From Natrinema sp. CBA1119 (GTDB taxonomy: Archaea; Halobacteriota; Halobacteria; Halobacteriales; Natrialbaceae): a stretch of 64,000 bases of DNA. Numbering within the stretch: position 1 is the stretch's first letter; every line of letters starts with the position of its first letter. Below, piece after piece: positions 27,729 to 41,353 of the stretch. The stretch covers positions 62,001 through 126,000 of the forward strand of contig NZ_PDBS01000008.1 in assembly GCF_002572525.1 (NCBI RefSeq). The letters are read 5' to 3'. A model generated the notes under the pieces. That model did no database searches. It was given only the letters and a program-made list of their open reading frames with translations, and was not told the DNA's origin. The position numbers and the translations under genes were made by a program.

Positions 27729-28541
27729 ATGGACGTAACCGAGGACATAGTTCGGGATGTCTGCACGGACGCGGTCTTCGAGCGCGGCGAACGATACCTT
27801 TCTGAGGGCCGTGTTCATGAGATTCACCGCGTCGACACCACCGTAACCGCCGTCGTGAGCGGCAGCCGTCAGTACGATGTCCGTGTTGACCTCGCCGCCG
27901 ACAGGTTTGCCCCGTGGTGCGACTGTCCATACGACGGGCCGGGAACGTGCAAGCACGTCGTCGCCGTGTTGCTTCGGTGTGTTGACGACCGTCCCCCAGA
28001 CGAAGGCGATCGACTCGATGCCGCACTCAACGGTGCCGATGCCGACGAGCTCCGCGCGTTCCTGCGTGAAGAACTCGTGATCGATGCGGACCTCCGCGAT
28101 CAATTTCTCGCCCATGCCGGTGGGTCAACGAGGCGGTCGGTCAGCGAACTTCGCACCTCGATCGATCGGCGGTTTGAGGAGACGAACCCTGAGTACGACG
28201 TCGTTTTCGAGCCGATCGACTTCACGGAGTGGTTTGATCTCGCGAACGAGTACCGCAAGCAGGAGCAGTACAGATCAGCGATGATCGTCTACCGGGCACT
28301 TATCGAGTCGCTTGACGACAACATGGAGCGCGTCGACGGCGCATACGACCACTTCTCGAGTGCGTTCAGACAGGCACTCGACGGGTACGTCGACTGTATC
28401 GTGGCCACGGAACGCGACGCCGACACGGTCACAGACGCCGTCGCATTCCTCGATGAGCGAGCGGCGTCGGGAACGCCGTTCCTCGCGGAACACTTCGAGC
28501 GGGCAGCGGCCGAGCTCCGAGAAAAGGTGGGCGAGTCCTGA
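27729..28541 (+). CDS. SWIM zinc-finger protein
   Basis: The 270-residue protein starts at MDVTEDIVRDVCTDAVFERG; the frame is open further upstream, but this Met begins the conserved FERGERYLSEGRVHEI region. The SWIM motif is WCDCPYDGPGTCKHVVAVLL (CxCx7CxH). A helical C-terminal domain follows (FDLANEYRKQEQYRSAMIVY, a TPR-like helix pair). SWIM proteins bind DNA or partner proteins; the exact role is unknown. It lies directly left of the first origin boxes. Confidence 0.75.
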   Translation: MDVTEDIVRDVCTDAVFERGERYLSEGRVHEIHRVDTTVTAVVSGSRQYDVRVDLAADRFAPWCDCPYDGPGTCKHVVAVLLRCVDDRPPDEGDRLDAALNGADADELRAFLREELVIDADLRDQFLAHAGGSTRRSVSELRTSIDRRFEETNPEYDVVFEPIDFTEWFDLANEYRKQEQYRSAMIVYRALIESLDDNMERVDGAYDHFSSAFRQALDGYVDCIVATERDADTVTDAVAFLDERAASGTPFLAEHFERAAAELREKVGES

Positions 28542-28562
28542 TTGAGTGTCCACACCCCTTCG

Positions 28563-28810
28563 TGTCCAGTGTCTTCTCATAATCTGCGAACCGAACTGCA
28601 CCCTACCCCGCTATGTCCAGTGTCTCGGATAGTTCAAGAGTAGCAGGACACCCCATCGTGTCCAGTGTCTTTACGGCCATTTCGGTACTCGGATGACTAC
28701 CCCAGTTTGTCCAGTGTCTCAGACTCCTCGAGAGTAGCAGGACACCCCACTCTGTCCAGTGTCCAAATCACCAGCAGGCAACAGAATATACCCCATTGTG
28801 TCCAGTGTCT
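28563..28810. other. Origin recognition boxes, downstream cluster of orc gene 1
   Basis: Six direct copies of TGTCCAGTGTCT (one ends TCC) start at 28563, 28614, 28659, 28709, 28753 and 28799, each preceded by a C-rich run such as ACCCCATT or ACACCCCATCG. A seventh, degenerate copy (TGTCCACTGTCT) lies inside the orc gene near 28869. Repeats of this type next to orc1/cdc6 are origin recognition boxes. Confidence 0.85.
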
Positions 28811-28818
28811 TTCGAGTG

Positions 28819-30036
28819 TCAGAGGTCCTGATCGAGACGCTGCTGAACGGCGTCGGTTACCCCCACCATGTCCACTGTCTCGTCGAGAGCTTCGAGTAGG
28901 AGATCGGGATTTGTGTCGAGAGCATACTCGTAGTACCGACCACCCGATTCACCTCTGTTCCGCTCTGTACGACTCGCAATCCCTAACATCGAAAGCTCGC
29001 CAAGATGGTCACGCATCCGTCGGGGAACGAGCGGGTCAACTGCAGCTCGACCACAGATAATTTCGTATCGATCCTGCACGTCACGCGCCCGAATCGGTGT
29101 ATCACCCTCTTCGTGTAACATCAGGAGGGCGTACAGCACGAGATGTCCCTGCTGGGTGAGACCAGCAACGCCGTCGACGATTCGACTCCGCTCGAGGGAC
29201 TCTCGAGCCTGGTCAACGTGGTCGACGGTTACCCGCGTGGCGTCCTGTTCAACAGCCACGTCCCCTGCTTCCATAAGCAGATCCAGACTTTGTCGGGCGT
29301 CTCCGGCGTCTTTAGCGCCGAACGCTGCACACTTCGCGATGACTTCATGCGGCACGACATCGTCGAAAAACGCGATATCAGCGCGTTGGCGAAGGATATC
29401 TCGGAGCTCATTCGCATTGTAGGCAGGGAACTGGAGTTCTTTTTCGCACAGGCTCGACTGGACTTTCGAACTCAGCGACTCGCGGAATTTGAAGTCGTTT
29501 GAGATACCGATGATTCCGACCTTTGATTCCTCCAGATTGCCGTTGGCTCGAGCGCGTGGGATCTGGTACAGAATTGAATCATCGTCGATGTGATCGATCT
29601 CGTCGAATACGATGATGACGGTGCTGCTGATCGCGTCGAGTTCCTCCCAAAGCCATTCGTTTACTTGTCGTCGGGGATATCCAGTCGGCTTCAAATGATC
29701 CTCTGGGTCGCGGAGATCGTTGATCAGTTGAATCGCGACCTGATAGCTCGTACTCAGATCCTCGCAGTTCGTACGGATAGTCATGAGATCGACATCGAAT
29801 TTAGCCGCGTCATCTTTGAGTTCCCGAAGGAGATAGCGCGTACAGGCGGTTTTCCCGACGCCGGCTTTGCCATAGAGAAAGATATTCGCAGGCTGATCGC
29901 CGTTGATGACGGGCTGCAGGGCCGAAATATATTGCTGTAGCTCTTCATCGCGACCGACAATCTCCTCTGGTTGGTAATCTTCCCGGAGGACATCTCGCTC
30001 CTGAAAGATATCCGTGTCAGGCTGGAACAAGCTCAT
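28819..30036 (-). CDS. orc: Orc1/Cdc6 replication initiator, copy 1
   Basis: The 405-residue initiator AAA+ ATPase has Walker A YGKAGVGKTACTRYLL, Walker B TVIIVFDEIDHID, sensor 1 VGIIGISNDFKF and a sensor 2/arginine region in GDARQSLDLLMEAGDVA. The C-terminal winged helix (TQQGHLVLYALLMLHEEGDT) binds origin boxes. It recognises the origin and loads the replicative helicase. It is surrounded by TGTCCAGTGTCT boxes on both sides, with an AT-rich tract upstream, the usual autonomous-origin layout in haloarchaea. Confidence 0.93.
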   Translation of the reverse strand: MSLFQPDTDIFQERDVLREDYQPEEIVGRDEELQQYISALQPVINGDQPANIFLYGKAGVGKTACTRYLLRELKDDAAKFDVDLMTIRTNCEDLSTSYQVAIQLINDLRDPEDHLKPTGYPRRQVNEWLWEELDAISSTVIIVFDEIDHIDDDSILYQIPRARANGNLEESKVGIIGISNDFKFRESLSSKVQSSLCEKELQFPAYNANELRDILRQRADIAFFDDVVPHEVIAKCAAFGAKDAGDARQSLDLLMEAGDVAVEQDATRVTVDHVDQARESLERSRIVDGVAGLTQQGHLVLYALLMLHEEGDTPIRARDVQDRYEIICGRAAVDPLVPRRMRDHLGELSMLGIASRTERNRGESGGRYYEYALDTNPDLLLEALDETVDMVGVTDAVQQRLDQDL

Positions 30037-30090
30037 AGTGATCTTGCCTTAGCGTGTTTGGGAACCAACATAAAACCACCGCGTCGAGTG

Positions 30091-30331
30091 TGTCCAGTGT
30101 GTCTAGTGTCCCGTTTCCTACCCCTCTCCCCCACCCCACTATGTCCAGTGTCTTCCCGGAATAGCAAGGGGGACTCCGTTGATGAAGAACTTTAAACGTT
30201 AGAAAAATTTAAGTTGTCTATCCACAAACTAGTCCGAACGGTAGCTAGCACAGTAGTGAGTGGATGGATTTCTTAGGTTGAAGTGACTACAACAGCTTTC
30301 CGATCAAACTGGCGCGCAAAGACACTGGACA
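30091..30331. other. Replication origin 1: upstream boxes and AT-rich unwinding tract
   Basis: Boxes TGTCCAGTGT at 30091 and TGTCCAGTGTCT at 30142 face an inverted copy AGACACTGGACA at 30320-30331, followed by TGATGGGGTGGG, the complement of the C-rich part of the box. Between them lies an AT-rich stretch (ACTTTAAACG and AGAAAAATTTAAG, about 30187-30212), a likely duplex-unwinding element. Inverted boxes around an AT tract upstream of orc are the canonical haloarchaeal arrangement. Confidence 0.8.
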
Positions 30332-32673: not shown

Positions 32674-32841
32674 CTGTCTCAACACTCCCCTCTCTCATAA
32701 CACATCGTCGGCCGTTTTTACTACCTTGAGGGCTCGCCGTCTCAACTGGGTCAAATCGCCGGATATCATCCGTCTAATCGGAGAAATACACATCGACAAA
32801 GGTGGGCAACACTTTTGGTCCCACCCTGTATGGGTCACCGT

Positions 32842-34269
32842 ATGGATGACTTCGAGGATCCTCGAGATGAGGCGGGGACATCGAAGGACGAAACGATGGA
32901 GGAGGACATTTCCTCATTCGAGTCTTCAGCGCCTGAGATATCTTCATCCTCGAGTAACTCGCCGTCGACCAATGGTTCACAATCGATCGAGGATATGTTG
33001 CTGGAGTTCGATCAGCAAGAGGGACTCATTCGTGATCGGTCGCTTCTCGATCCGAATCACATCGTCGAAGAGGATCGAATCGTCGGTCGCGACGAACAAC
33101 TCCAGGAGGTTACGAAGATGCTCCGCGTCGCTCTCGGGGACAACCGTCCGCCGAATCTCTTTCTCTATGGTCCCTCGGGGACCGGTAAATCTCTCATCAC
33201 CAAAGCCGTTTGCAAGAACATTAGCGCGATCTGCGAATCACGTGACATTCGCTTCGGGACGATCGAAGTCAACTGCCAGGATCTCGACACCCTCGGCGTT
33301 GCAGTCTACGAACTAGCGAGTCGCGCTGCGGATGAAGCTCTCGTCGAGGTCGAGGTTCCGAAACACGGCGTCGCGACGAAGGAAAAGTGGGACGAACTTT
33401 ATCGGATCGTCAACAAGAACTTCGATTCAGCAGTGTTCGTCCTCGATGAACTCGATATGCTCGTCGGTCGACGGGACAAACAGGAGCCGGCGTTCTCCCG
33501 CCTCCTCTATCAACTGTCTCGAGCCGGTGCAAATAATGAACTCACTGCGCACGTCTCAGTCGTCGCGATCTCTAACGATACGAAGATGATGGAGTCCGTG
33601 GGGAGTCGGGCTCTGAGCTCCTTTACCCCCGAAGACGTCCACTTTGACGATTACGATGCGAATCAGTTGCAGTCGATTCTTCGTCGTCGACAGGACGCCT
33701 TCTATGACGACGTTCTTGACGAGGACGTCATTCCGCTGGCGGCTGCCTTCGCAGCGCAGACCCACGGCGATGCTCGCAAAGCGATCGATCTCATGCGCGT
33801 CGCCGGTGAACTCGCTGAACGCGAAGGTGACGAAGGTGTTCGTGAAGCGCACGTCCGTGAGGCGCAGGACAAAGTCGAGAAAAACCGCGTCCTCGAAGTC
33901 GTTCGAGGTATCAGCACACAGAAGAAGCTTTGTCTCTATGCGACGGCAGCTGTCGCTGCCGAAACGGACGATGAATCCGCACGTAGTACGACCGGCTACC
34001 GGGTGTATCAGTTCCTCACTGACGCGATCGAGGCCGACCAATATCACCAGGAGACCTACGTTAACAAGATGAAGGAGATGACGACATACTCTCTCGTCGA
34101 CTTCGAACGACGAAGCCATGGACCGAGTTCGGGGATGTTCCTCGAGTTCCAGTTCGGCGAGCGTCCCGAGACGATCCTCGAAACGCTTCGCGAGGACTCG
34201 CGTATCGACATGGTCTCCGGGGACGAAGTCTCGACCGTCGTCAAAGCACAGGTTAGAAACGAGAACTGA
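32842..34269 (+). CDS. orc: Orc1/Cdc6 replication initiator, copy 2
   Basis: The protein has 475 residues from MDDFEDPRDEAGTSKDET; nearby upstream Met/GTG codons are alternatives. A Ser/Glu-rich disordered N-terminus of about 60 residues precedes the AAA+ core: Walker A YGPSGTGKSLITKAV, Walker B AVFVLDELDMLV, sensor 1 VSVVAISNDTKMM and GDARKAIDLMRVAGELA. The C-terminal winged helix is less typical than in copy 1. Boxes of the second family lie upstream (32019-32673) and downstream (34312, 34469), indicating that this protein serves origin 2. Confidence 0.93.
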   Translation: MDDFEDPRDEAGTSKDETMEEDISSFESSAPEISSSSSNSPSTNGSQSIEDMLLEFDQQEGLIRDRSLLDPNHIVEEDRIVGRDEQLQEVTKMLRVALGDNRPPNLFLYGPSGTGKSLITKAVCKNISAICESRDIRFGTIEVNCQDLDTLGVAVYELASRAADEALVEVEVPKHGVATKEKWDELYRIVNKNFDSAVFVLDELDMLVGRRDKQEPAFSRLLYQLSRAGANNELTAHVSVVAISNDTKMMESVGSRALSSFTPEDVHFDDYDANQLQSILRRRQDAFYDDVLDEDVIPLAAAFAAQTHGDARKAIDLMRVAGELAEREGDEGVREAHVREAQDKVEKNRVLEVVRGISTQKKLCLYATAAVAAETDDESARSTTGYRVYQFLTDAIEADQYHQETYVNKMKEMTTYSLVDFERRSHGPSSGMFLEFQFGERPETILETLREDSRIDMVSGDEVSTVVKAQVRNEN

Positions 34270-36854: not shown

Positions 36855-37280
36855 GAACTGTTGCTTTCTTACCACTCTCAGACTTTCATGGTCAGCTAGC
36901 GACTGATTCCGAGATTTGTCATCAAAGGGATGAGGAGAGTAAGCGACAAATCACGACGCCTGAGCGAATGGATCTGTCCTGAAAGCGTACTCCAGTTACT
37001 CCTCGGAGAACAACGATATCCAGTACTGTTTCCCCTGACCTGTGGGACGTATCCAGACCATCAGTGACGCTTTCGCGGCGTTCGACGAATCCCGATTCGC
37101 TGGTGGGAGTGTTCCGACGGTTTCCCTCGAGTAGCGTGATATCGAGGCTCAGCTGGCGTGGATGTGCGTCTACCGAGTTCTGATGGACGGAGCTGTTCGA
37201 ATCGTCGTTTGGAAGGCCTAGCGGTGCCGACTTCGGCCGGGACGATGCCACCGGTGATCCGTCACGACTGGCTGGCTATT
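36855..37280. other. Intergenic, nothing firm
   Basis: Frames here have mixed composition and no recognisable features. It lies just before the partition repeat array. Confidence 0.3.
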
Positions 37281-37287
37281 GGAGATA

Positions 37288-37737
37288 CAATAGGTGGGGT
37301 AGCTACAATAGGCTCAATATGCTTGATAGGTGGTGGTGGTTCAATAGTCGCAATGTGTACAGTAGATATGCGCAATATAATGGATCAACTATGTTTGTTG
37401 GAGACGGTCGGCTATCTGAGGTGCCTCTACTGTGGTTCGTTCGATAGCTGGAATAGCTATAATCGGTGGCGAGCTAACAATAGGCACCTATCCTCCCACA
37501 CCTACTTGTTCTATCACACCTATCTTGCCTATCCTATCTATTATGGCTATTCTACCTATTGAACCTATTGGGCCTATCGTGTCTTTTGTAGGTGGTGGTA
37601 CTATCCTATCTGGCGTGCCTACTCTATCTACTGTCTCTTGAGTTGGCCTCGACAATCGGTGTTGGCTCCTACAATAGGTGCCTGAACTACCTTCCCTATT
37701 GGTCATATTTTACCTATTGTAGCTACTCCTCCTATTG
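37288..37737. repeat. Partition-type iteron array with 9-bp period
   Basis: On the left side CAATAG-like units recur at 37288, 37306, 37315, 37324, 37342, 37351 and 37360, all multiples of 9 bp apart. From 37501 nine consecutive 9-mers follow the pattern YCTATYNNN (CCTATCTTG, CCTATCCTA, TCTATTATG, GCTATTCTA, CCTATTGAA, CCTATTGGG, CCTATCGTG among them). Further CCTATT units lie at 37695, 37713 and 37731. Apparent reading frames here only reflect the repeat (Pro-Ile tripeptides). The position just upstream of parA suggests a centromere (parS-like) and operator. Confidence 0.8.
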
Positions 37738-37855
37738 TACCTCGAGTAGGTAGAATTAATATGATGGGGTGGAATGCATTCTTCACCAGCTGAAATAGGA
37801 GATATCAGAACAATAGGGGCCTATTCTGGCTCGCCTATGGCAGGTACATCCAACA

Positions 37856-38746
37856 ATGTCCGATACAACGACCGAGTCACGTGCCGTAAGCGTGGTTATT
37901 TTGAAAGGTGGCGTCGGCAAATCAACAACTTCGATGAATCTCGCGCGCCAGCTTGTAGAGCGTGGACGAACCCTCTACGCTGATCTCGATCCGAACGGTC
38001 ATGCAACGAACGGCCTCGGTTTCGAAGCGGCATACAACGGTGAGATCAATCTCGGTGACGTCATTCTCGAGGGCAACGCGACACCGCATGACTTGATTCG
38101 ATCGACCGATTACGGCTTCGACCTCCTTCCGTCTTCGAACACACTCGAGGATGTCGAAAAAGACCTTGCGGGCGCGATGCAGGGATCGGCTCGGATCAAA
38201 TCGAAGATCGTCGATCCGTTACTCGGTGACGAGTACGACTTCATCGTTTTCGACTGCCCGGCGTACCCGGGGATGCTCAATAACAACGCCCTCGTTGCGA
38301 CGGGGAACGTCGTGATCCCGATCGAACCGGGCTCGAGTGCGATCGGTGGCTACAAGCGAACGATGGAACGGTTGATCGAACCGGCCCGGGAGTACATCGA
38401 CGTCGACGTCCTCGCTGTCGTTCCGAACAAACTGTCCGATCGGATCGACCAACAGACCGAAGATCGGGAACTACTCGAGAACCTGAATACTGCGACCTAC
38501 GAGGTAAATCCAGGACAATCGTTACAGGAGGCGATCCCGAACTTCGCTCGGATTACGGCCGACGAGTTCGACGCGATCGACGCCGGCGAGATGGCTCCGC
38601 CAAAACCCGGTATCCGTCACCGATCGGCGCTGTCGCGATCACTGCAGCATAATCAACCGTTGCAGGATTACGACCCCGACAACGATCAGATCGACTTTTA
38701 CGAGGAACTTGCCGAAATAGTTGCCGTCGGAGGGGTCGAACGATGA
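37856..38746 (+). CDS. parA: ParA-family partition ATPase
   Basis: This 296-residue ParA/MinD-type ATPase has the deviant Walker A KGGVGKSTTSMNLA (residues about 17-30), the Walker A' ADLDPNGHATNGLG, and the Walker B region YDFIVFDCPAYPGMLNNNAL. It lacks an N-terminal helix-turn-helix, so it resembles the small ParA type; the partner would bind the centromere. It moves replicon copies apart using ATP-dependent nucleoid binding. It is coupled by a 4-nt overlap to the downstream acidic protein and flanked by CAATAG/CTATTG arrays. Confidence 0.9.
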   Translation: MSDTTTESRAVSVVILKGGVGKSTTSMNLARQLVERGRTLYADLDPNGHATNGLGFEAAYNGEINLGDVILEGNATPHDLIRSTDYGFDLLPSSNTLEDVEKDLAGAMQGSARIKSKIVDPLLGDEYDFIVFDCPAYPGMLNNNALVATGNVVIPIEPGSSAIGGYKRTMERLIEPAREYIDVDVLAVVPNKLSDRIDQQTEDRELLENLNTATYEVNPGQSLQEAIPNFARITADEFDAIDAGEMAPPKPGIRHRSALSRSLQHNQPLQDYDPDNDQIDFYEELAEIVAVGGVER

Positions 38747-39204
38747 GTAATCCGTTCGACGATCTCAAAGACGACGAGATGGACACGTCCGAGTCGGAAG
38801 ATCCGAACGACTCCGAGTCACGATCTGACTCGAATCGAACTGACAAACAACCGTCGGTAACGGAGTCCTCCGCCTCGAGTATACACGAGGAGTCTGCTTC
38901 AGAGACACCCGTGGAGGAAGAGAGCTCCGGCGCGACCTCGGATGAACCGCTATCGCCTGCAGAAACGGGACCGGCGTTCGAGTACAGTGAAGTGAAACAG
39001 AAGCCGTTCTACGCACGCACCGAGACGGTGAACCAATTCGAAAACGAGATTCGGATGACGATCGTTCCGACACTCGCCGAGGCCGGGCTGCTCGACGAAG
39101 AGACACGCGAAATTCACGATGCGGTCCTCCGCCTCGCAAACGAGCAGCCAGAACGGATCGCCGAACTCGTCCTCGAGGAACGACGACAGTCGGGGAGTCA
39201 GTGA
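38743..39204 (+). CDS. Putative centromere-binding partner of ParA
   Basis: This 153-residue protein overlaps parA by ATGA. The first 85 residues are acidic, Ser-rich and disordered; the C-terminal 65 (QKPFYARTETVNQFENEIRM, then LLDEETREIHDAVLRLANEQ) form a compact helical domain that could bind DNA or dimerise. There is no ParB nuclease-like motif. Operon position and the adjacent iterons suggest the adaptor of a plasmid partition system; this is inference from context. Confidence 0.7.
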   Translation: MSNPFDDLKDDEMDTSESEDPNDSESRSDSNRTDKQPSVTESSASSIHEESASETPVEEESSGATSDEPLSPAETGPAFEYSEVKQKPFYARTETVNQFENEIRMTIVPTLAEAGLLDEETREIHDAVLRLANEQPERIAELVLEERRQSGSQ

Positions 39205-39350
39205 GTTCGATGTGGCCGTATTCCTCATCGATTCGGTGCTGATCTGTGAACGTTTTCTCCGTCCTCGTAGTGATCGCTGGATCTCGAGCGATAATGGTTT
39301 GCAAAATGGGGCTCTCAACCTTTTTCTGTGAAGAATAGGTCCCTTAGGTT

Positions 39351-39417
39351 CAATAGGGTGTTGACGGCCTTGATGAAACGAATACAATAGGATGAATAGG
39401 TGCAATAGCTTAGGTAT
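39351..39417. repeat. Downstream partition iterons
   Basis: CAATAGGGT at 39351, then CAATAGGAT (39385), GAATAGGTG (39394), CAATAGCTT (39403) and TAGGTATCT: units 9 bp apart, the same motif as the upstream array. They lie about 150 bp after the ParA-partner operon, so the operon is bracketed by the repeat. Confidence 0.7.
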
Positions 39418-39849
39418 CTTGGATAGTAGAAAGGGTGTACGTCGTGGAAAGAATGGAGGTGAACCGCCTCGATCTGAAGTTCCGAGGCAGTTGACCGGCC
39501 GACAATAGAGTTCGCTCTGTGAGATCGAATGGGCGAATACACGAAGCAGGCGCGACTAGATGATTGACATATCCTGAACTCACGGAACGGTGTTGATACC
39601 AATCTGTAAATTATATTTCGATATATAATTCTGGGGCAGTGTGGTAGCACAGTTTCGGAGGATAGGTTAGTCGTGGGTCAAATCTCCGTTTATCGGTGAT
39701 TCCCATCGCCAATTAAGAGTCGGTCTCAAGCCCTGTCGACCAGTGTCACCGTATCGAAGCCGACGGCGTGAAGCGCGTAAATCTCCTGTCTGAAACTGCT
39801 TAGTAATTGACGGCGTCACCGTGGCCAGAATCGAACTCCATCCGTTTGA
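39418..39849. other. Intergenic, AT-rich palindrome only
   Basis: AATTATAT-TTCGAT-ATATAATT at about 39608-39630 is a perfect 8-bp stem. No gene is supported. Confidence 0.4.
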
Positions 39850-40792: not shown

Positions 40793-41353
40793 ATGGCTGA
40801 CCCGAAGGAATCCATCAACATCGAAAACGTAGTGGCGTCGACCGGCATCGGGCAGGAACTCGATCTCCAGAGTGTCGCAATGGACCTCGAGGGGGCCGAC
40901 TACGACCCCGAGCAGTTCCCCGGTCTCGTCTACCGCACCCAGAATCCCAAGTCCGCCGCACTGATCTTCCGTTCGGGGAAGATTGTCTGTACCGGCGCGA
41001 AAAGCACTGACGCCGTCCACGAGAGTCTCAATATCGTCTTCGACGAACTCCGCGAACTCCAGATCCAGGTCGAAGCGGACCCCGAGATCATCGTCCAAAA
41101 CATCGTCAGCAGCGCTGATCTCGGCCGGAACCTCAACCTGAACGCGATCGCCATCGGGCTGGGCCTCGAGAATATCGAGTACGAACCGGAGCAATTCCCC
41201 GGACTCGTGTATCGCCTCGATGAGCCGAAAGTCGTCGCCCTCCTCTTCGGCTCCGGGAAACTGGTTATCACCGGCGGGAAGAAGGTGGAAGACGCCAGTC
41301 AGGCCGTCGATGTGATCGTTACCCGCCTCGAGGAGCTCGGCCTGCTCGAGTAA
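40793..41353 (+). CDS. tbp: TATA-box-binding protein (TBP)
   Basis: The 186-residue protein has the two-fold TBP repeat: INIENVVASTGIGQELDLQS with YDPEQFPGLVYRTQNPKSAA, and VQNIVSSADLGRNLNLNAIA with YEPEQFPGLVYRLDEPKVVA; each repeat ends in a FxSGKxVxTGxKxxxDA segment. The C-terminal end is acidic as usual in haloarchaea. It binds TATA boxes and recruits TFB and RNA polymerase. It is an accessory copy; together with the TFB at 25571 it may direct a subset of promoters. Confidence 0.95.
   Translation: MADPKESINIENVVASTGIGQELDLQSVAMDLEGADYDPEQFPGLVYRTQNPKSAALIFRSGKIVCTGAKSTDAVHESLNIVFDELRELQIQVEADPEIIVQNIVSSADLGRNLNLNAIAIGLGLENIEYEPEQFPGLVYRLDEPKVVALLFGSGKLVITGGKKVEDASQAVDVIVTRLEELGLLE

Follow-up and report, generated by a model that had tools for sequence, protein, structure and literature searches.

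A 9-bp lattice of two-fold symmetric boxes flanks a haloarchaeal parA operon and is a probable centromere

What is a strictly 9-bp repeat doing on both sides of a parA operon in Natrinema sp. CBA1119? The window, that is the whole 64-kb stretch of DNA analysed, covers positions 62001-126000 of contig C8 (529308 bp) in a genome of 5.06 Mb and nine contigs; judging by its size, C8 is probably a plasmid or secondary replicon. Here 36 CTATY/RATAG units flank an operon of parA and a small partner gene, at 37276-37825 and 39334-39508 (Table 1), a span wider than the limits given in an earlier sequence-only reading. That reading had described nine consecutive YCTATYNNN 9-mers, and nine tandem 9-mers are indeed present (starts 37501, 37510 and so on to 37573; end 37581): seven follow the consensus strictly, while the first reads CCTACTTGT and the unit at 37546 starts with G, and the CTATY core is found in eight. 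Units which it called CAATAG do lie at 37288, 37306, 37324, 37342 and 37360, in 18-bp steps, but the third is TGATAG and the fifth CAGTAG; likewise three lie at 39385, 39394 and 39403, in 9-bp steps, but the middle one is GAATAG. The CAATAG-type units run opposite to the CTATY 9-mers, as it had claimed. CCTATY has 12 of its 22 occurrences in the 64 kb within 801 bp, and CAATAG 10 of its 17 within the same 801 bp.

Table 1. Coordinates of the array, the par operon and neighbouring or related features (window positions, unless contig positions are indicated).
Feature	Coordinates	Strand	Description
Array block 1	37276..37370	.	mostly RATAG; 18-bp and 9-bp steps; all dyad phase 6.5 (mod 9)
Array block 2	37407..37605	.	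minus and plus units, mostly on one lattice, phase 7.5; includes the nine tandem 9-mers
Array block 3	37606..37754	.	both orientations, mostly on a half-unit-shifted lattice, phase 3.5
Array block 4	37790..37826	.	contains the conserved palindrome AATAG-N4-CTATT (37812-37825), ~30 bp before the parA ATG
parA	37856..38746	+	296 aa; deviant Walker A KGGVGKST; without N-terminal DNA-binding domain
partner	38743..39204	+	153 aa; N-terminal MSNPFDDL, acidic linker, C-terminal ~70-aa helical domain
Downstream array	39334..39508	-	seven RATAG units; three consecutive at 39386/39395/39404
orc1/cdc6 gene	32815..34269	+	neighbour, outside the par unit
orc1/cdc6-type ORF	28819-30036	-	flanked by TGTCCAGTGTC repeats at 28540-28850 and 30090-30150
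L082	456632-461883 (contig C8, genome G000)		
L071	507151-512528 (contig C8, genome G000)		

Autocorrelation, which the sequence-only reading had proposed as a measure of the period, placed identity at lag 9 at 9.4 s.d. above dinucleotide shuffles, and the mean over lags 9, 18, 27 and 36 at 13.8 s.d. above them. When the 64 kb were scanned in 635 intervals, the five top-scoring ones all fell in 37101-38000 (robust z 7.9 to 12.7) and the sixth and seventh adjoined them at 36901-37500 (z 3.6 and 4.7); no comparable 9-bp period was seen elsewhere in the window, where the best other value was z = 3.4. Since 9 is a multiple of 3, a coding origin of the period was checked. Coding controls scored too high with our first statistic (median 3.6, maximum 9.8), which was replaced for that reason by a corrected one, a contrast of lags 9/18/27/36 with the other multiples of 3, on which alone the locus counts below rest. 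Across the whole 5.06-Mb genome, a pattern of four tandem units with at most two mismatches gave 28 matches, versus 6 for the reversed control pattern, confined to this locus, one further site on C8, the two copies, on contig C6, of a related operon, and a single place on contig C1. The array first noticed at this locus is confirmed, and it is larger than had been reported.

The earlier description caught the periodic units and missed three things: that the unit is two-fold symmetric, that further arrays lie at a distance, and that a palindrome is conserved before parA. In the clade of this locus (clades were drawn by ParA similarity) the de novo motif, AgcTA...TAgcT, is palindromic and amounts to TAGCTANNN repeated, and CTATY and RATAG are two asymmetric forms of a TAGCTANNN-type box. 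This symmetry explains the spacing on both strands: in 24 pooled loci same-strand neighbour gaps were multiples of 9 in 81/111 and 130/162 cases, minus-to-plus gaps were 0 or 5 mod 9 in 52/69, and the commonest plus-to-minus value was 4 mod 9 (16/51). Over 46 own-clade loci, 597 of the 686 neighbour gaps were 0 mod 9, 63 were 4 or 5, and 26 took other values. At the Natrinema sp. locus, plus and minus units keep to a single dyad phase over ~190 bp, and the phase is mostly 6.5 (37276-37370), 7.5 (37407-37605), 3.5 (37606-37750) and 7.5 again before parA; the first of these changes amounts to one base and the last two to half a unit. Flips of orientation do not interrupt the lattice, since the box has two-fold symmetry.

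Of the 46 own-clade loci, 44 have a palindrome RATAG-N4-CTATY (one free base allowed per arm) no more than 75 bp from the start of parA, and its end is mostly 21-31 bp ahead of that start; none of 506 coding control windows has one. Such a site, in an array that stops ~30 bp short of the parA ATG, is what would be expected if the array were a large operator only, through which the partner represses parA cooperatively, with no centromere role. We think this unlikely: the array is ~550 bp long and has a downstream part here, it is linked to a ParA ATPase, and further arrays without an adjacent parA lie 4-250 kb away among the matches listed (see below).

ParA matches Pfam AAA_31 (E 2.7e-29) from residue 9 of 296, and its nearest solved structures in a PDB search are ParA/Soj proteins. 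The operon had been called a partition-type operon, and this stands: the ParA is real, and ParA, partner and array travel together through Halobacteria. The partner adjoins parA across loci, mostly with an ATGA overlap, and keeps one plan, with an FDDL-like N-terminus, an acidic linker of variable length, and a C-terminal YxR-containing segment followed by helices (at this locus, KPFYAR and three helices). Its N-terminal motif is NPFDDL in 55/121 loci; DPFADL, NRFAGL, FDLG-P, MxFDDL and others also occur. In one locus (L183) the linker contains long internal repeats, and the gene has a 9-bp periodicity of its own in coding DNA. That the partner lacks ParB motifs was borne out, as no Pfam family, and hence no ParB family, matches the partners, and a ParB/Srx-type domain was absent from them in the Pfam search. 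Pfam, NCBIfam and PHROGs gave just weak, mostly low-complexity matches, and PDB profile searches gave nothing useful. At 38960-39010 a partner stretch, GPAFEYSEVKQKP, resembles GRPFSYSEVSQRP of TFIIE-alpha (E 0.021); the acidic linker and a GPxFxYSEVxQxP stretch account for the likeness, which is probably due to chance.

AlphaFold models the own-type partner domain as an extended segment followed by helices 28-48, 56-69 and 71-86 (pLDDT 87), and a distant-clade partner with the same order of elements (pLDDT 83). Neither model had a significant match by Foldseek against PDB and viral models or by VIA-align; 6gyg (Reg576), which we take to have a ribbon-helix-helix fold, was among the Foldseek matches only at E 8.2. 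In ribbon-helix-helix proteins the strand forms in the dimer only, and the predicted partner structure is compatible with a monomer of this fold. The 153-aa partner is the probable array-binding protein.

We then asked how widely the period is kept. The partner family is present in 74 of 125 genomes of the family Natrialbaceae and, by profile search, in 200 of 391 genomes of the class, with a parA match beside it in 123 of 126 non-duplicate loci examined. For the array test 129 loci were taken, and 121 remained after eight rows were dropped as duplicates (L122, L126, L127), for lack of a parA match (L090, L094, L186) or for short upstream sequence (L048, 137 bp; L091, 149 bp); L001-L005, L009, L013, L015 and L017-L047 were left out, most being the same as, or shorter versions of, loci used. 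By motif-free autocorrelation, lag-9 periodicity upstream of parA exceeded 95% of controls in 113/121 loci and topped the highest of all 198 controls (123 parA-coding and 75 far-upstream windows) in 88/121. The upstream sequences are mostly dissimilar, forming 102 clusters at 80% identity over 300 bp, of which 94 were positive; at 70% identity 80 of 88 clusters were. Among periods of 4-15 bp, 9 bp rose above 0.03 in 107 of the 121 loci, 6 bp (which shares lags 18 and 36 with the 9-bp period, in part only) in 14, 15 bp in 7, 12 bp in 5, and the others in none. Eight of the 121 loci gave no upstream 9-bp signal. In L082-L085 and L073 the match to parA is partial or doubtful; in L180, L183 and L195 ParA and partner look intact, with no clear 9-bp signal in 620 bp upstream. 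Named plasmids with the system include pHTUR02 and Halobacterium pNRC100; in pNRC100 an unbroken run of seven 9-mers, most of them CTATTC-type, lies upstream of the ParA gene. A tblastn search with ParA alone matched 137 plasmid records (E up to 1e-20). Since some loci are on multi-megabase contigs (e.g. L055, L058, L063, L064, L118, L123), the system is either not confined to plasmids or sits on integrated ones.

While the period is kept, the motif changes. By clade it is CTATT[G] (the clade of this locus), CTATTC, AGCTAAG-type, ACNGTGTAC or ATAATGTAC-type, and in every clade same-strand neighbours of the de novo motifs lie 0 mod 9 apart. The AGCTAAG clade (clade C, 5 loci) has a second, about equally common same-strand class at 5 mod 9 (14/40 and 16/34, versus 19 and 16 at 0). 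That spacing stays constant where motifs have changed in distant relatives suggests that a fixed scaffold of protein sits on the DNA. It also argues against a satellite produced by replication slippage with no bound protein, a known general route to tandem arrays that we regard as very improbable here: spacers vary freely while cores are kept, the spacing is often 18 or 27, both orientations occupy one lattice, and diverged loci show the 9-bp step again with other motifs. The partner's xxY-x-R segment differs by clade together with the core, P[FL]YAR-type segments occurring mostly with TAG/CTA motifs and TVYVR and GFYVR with GTAC-type motifs. This covariation, weak with seven groups, suggests that the partner reads the array core, and so speaks to the same degree against an arrangement in which ParA itself or a host protein binds the array and the partner is an ATPase activator. 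No DNA-binding fold can be assigned to the partner, which favours that arrangement; ParA, for its part, is without an N-terminal DNA-binding domain, and we give another binder only a small chance. Cooperative, filament-like binding by a small adaptor, as the sequence-only reading had put it, is consistent with a lattice kept across flips and a period kept despite motif change, and the partner would be that adaptor.

Near the par operon are two orc1/cdc6 genes and genes for a TATA-binding protein (40793-41353; Pfam TBP, E 3e-61), a TRAM-domain protein and a DDE transposase. As orc1/cdc6 genes also lie near parA in pNRC100 and pHTUR02, the array might be a replication origin whose iterons serve Orc1/Cdc6 or another initiator. 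Haloarchaeal ORBs are described, in the part of PMC3528665 available to us, as G-rich repeats beside orc1/cdc6. ORB-like TGTCCAGTGTC repeats of this kind flank another orc1/cdc6 ORF in the window, at 28.5-30.2 kb, and the region 28540-30150 has, from its sequence, the look of an ordinary haloarchaeal origin of the ORB type. Array units are CTATY and not ORB-type, their motif differs between parA/partner clades, and linkage to orc1 was not borne out as a rule, orc1 being found in just 5 of 14 longer loci (with limited flanks). An origin is therefore quite unlikely, and the earlier term "iteron arrays", in its replication sense, is unlikely to apply with ORB-like repeats beside an orc1/cdc6 ORF ~7 kb away.

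Arrays also occur at a distance from the operon. One in this genome, at C8:154871-154938, has seven units and is situated upstream of unrelated genes, 54 kb away from the operon. A scan of the 125 Natrialbaceae genomes, in which the reversed control pattern was rare overall, gave at least 59 array clusters; among those listed, 27 are within 3.5 kb of a partner gene, 13 are distal on a partner's contig (in at least nine genomes), and 19 are on contigs without a partner, several of these resembling coding repeats. The distal arrays listed are 4.5 to 248 kb from the partner along the contig, plus two at 493 and 634 kb, distances that would be shorter round the circle if those contigs are circular. 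A large array near a contig end (G020 C3 36780-37210, L212) had no parA or partner in the stretch read. A downstream array was rejected as a general feature, only 12 of 120 loci exceeding the 99% control. C8 also carries a second par operon of the AGCTAAG-type clade and a decayed third copy (L082, L071; Table 1), and the 77-kb contig C6 carries a clade-B par operon twice (L004, 33919; L005, 49500), with the same array pattern in both.

Among known systems the closest in layout is delta/omega/parS of Streptococcus plasmid pSM19035, a type Ib ParABS system whose ParA (Orf delta-prime, 2oze, E 1.1e-7) belongs to the same family as the one here. The accessible part of PMC9499535 describes 7-bp WATCACW heptads, 7-10 per site, contiguous, asymmetric, in both orientations and overlapping promoters, and a plasmid with several parS sites, where dimers bind one to a heptad and at least four contiguous heptads are needed for full ParA activation. 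The haloarchaeal system likewise has a small partner and short contiguous asymmetric repeats in both orientations, and shows the type Ib traits of a ParA without N-terminal DNA-binding domain, a small adjacent partner and repeated centromere-like sites at the operon. Unlike the heptads as described there, its boxes are 9 bp, number dozens at the operon and often skip one or two positions; moreover parA and partner share one operon, and the partner has a long acidic linker. We found no sequence relation between the two partners, and a 7-bp, heptad-like period occurred in 0/121 loci versus 9 bp in 107/121. By analogy with the heptads, the haloarchaeal arrays may be read as a block.

SegAB of Sulfolobales is also archaeal, and SegA (presumably the protein of 7dut) is related to the haloarchaeal ParA (E 1.8e-10). 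In the portions of PMC12284271 and PMC9178275 available, sites lie upstream of segAB and SegB is a ribbon-helix-helix protein forming a superhelix on DNA; its site, the 13-bp palindrome TCTAGASTCTAGA, occurs dispersed across the chromosome (PMC12284271), and those portions describe no 9-bp array. The 13-bp TCTAGASTCTAGA sites are not among our de novo array motifs, which differ from the SegB motif as given there, and partner profiles A1, A2 and A3 matched no SegB chain in the PDB (assuming that SegB is present there) at E up to 10. Plasmid pNOB8, as far as the available text of PMC5120986 goes, uses three proteins, AspA-ParB-ParA, with winged-helix AspA on a 23-bp palindrome; it shares an archaeal plasmid, a ParA and a DNA-coating adaptor with the haloarchaeal system, which has two genes and a 9-bp array. 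The stbDR repeats of R388 are 9-bp direct repeats in the promoter region, needed for plasmid stability, which is independent of the ParA-like StbB; being spaced by 2 bp they give an 11-bp period, versus 9 bp in haloarchaea (PMC3098194, accessible part). Met boxes offer a further parallel: MetJ binds tandem symmetric short boxes, one ribbon-helix-helix dimer each, with contacts between neighbours. MetJ is a metabolic repressor and its boxes are 8 bp, unlike the 9-bp haloarchaeal array. No description of this array or partner was found in the open-access literature searched, and the suggestion of a distinct haloarchaeal partition type is supported as a variant.

We therefore propose, with a probability of about 0.78, that the array is the parS-like centromere and operator of a haloarchaeal ParA partition system, coated by the partner and working like omega on the pSM19035 heptads. 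The partner, probably a ribbon-helix-helix-type dimer, would bind one 9-bp box, idealised as TAGCTANNN. Adjacent dimers would be packed at a constant interval of 9 bp (9/10.5 of a turn). As each step lags a full turn by ~51 degrees, the dimers would form a left-handed superhelix around the DNA, with roughly seven of them per turn, and half-unit shifts would start a new lattice. The coated array may recruit and activate ParA through the conserved FDDL-type motif at the partner's N-terminus, carried on the flexible acidic linker, and ParA would then move or tether the plasmid on the nucleoid, keeping it stable. Distal arrays on the same replicon would be extra partition sites, and the terminal palindrome beside the parA start an autorepression site through which the partner represses its own operon. 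A broader reading, which we put at somewhat less than even odds, is that this is an undescribed, class-wide centromere family whose invariant is the 9-bp lattice: a partner of a new family would form a continuous superhelical coat through orientation flips, maybe on two half-unit-offset lattices, clade-specific cores would define incompatibility groups among the plasmids of one cell, and distal arrays would gather large replicons, including some chromosomes.

The system bears on the question of how the numerous large plasmids of polyploid haloarchaea are distributed at cell division. It gives this question named, testable parts, namely an ATPase, a partner belonging to no known family and a centromere recognisable by spacing alone, also on Halobacterium pNRC100. 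In the Natrinema sp. genome, three or more clades of par operon with different core motifs sit in one cell, which opens specificity and plasmid compatibility to direct study. That the period is kept despite sequence change is unusual, clean evidence for a protein lattice on DNA.
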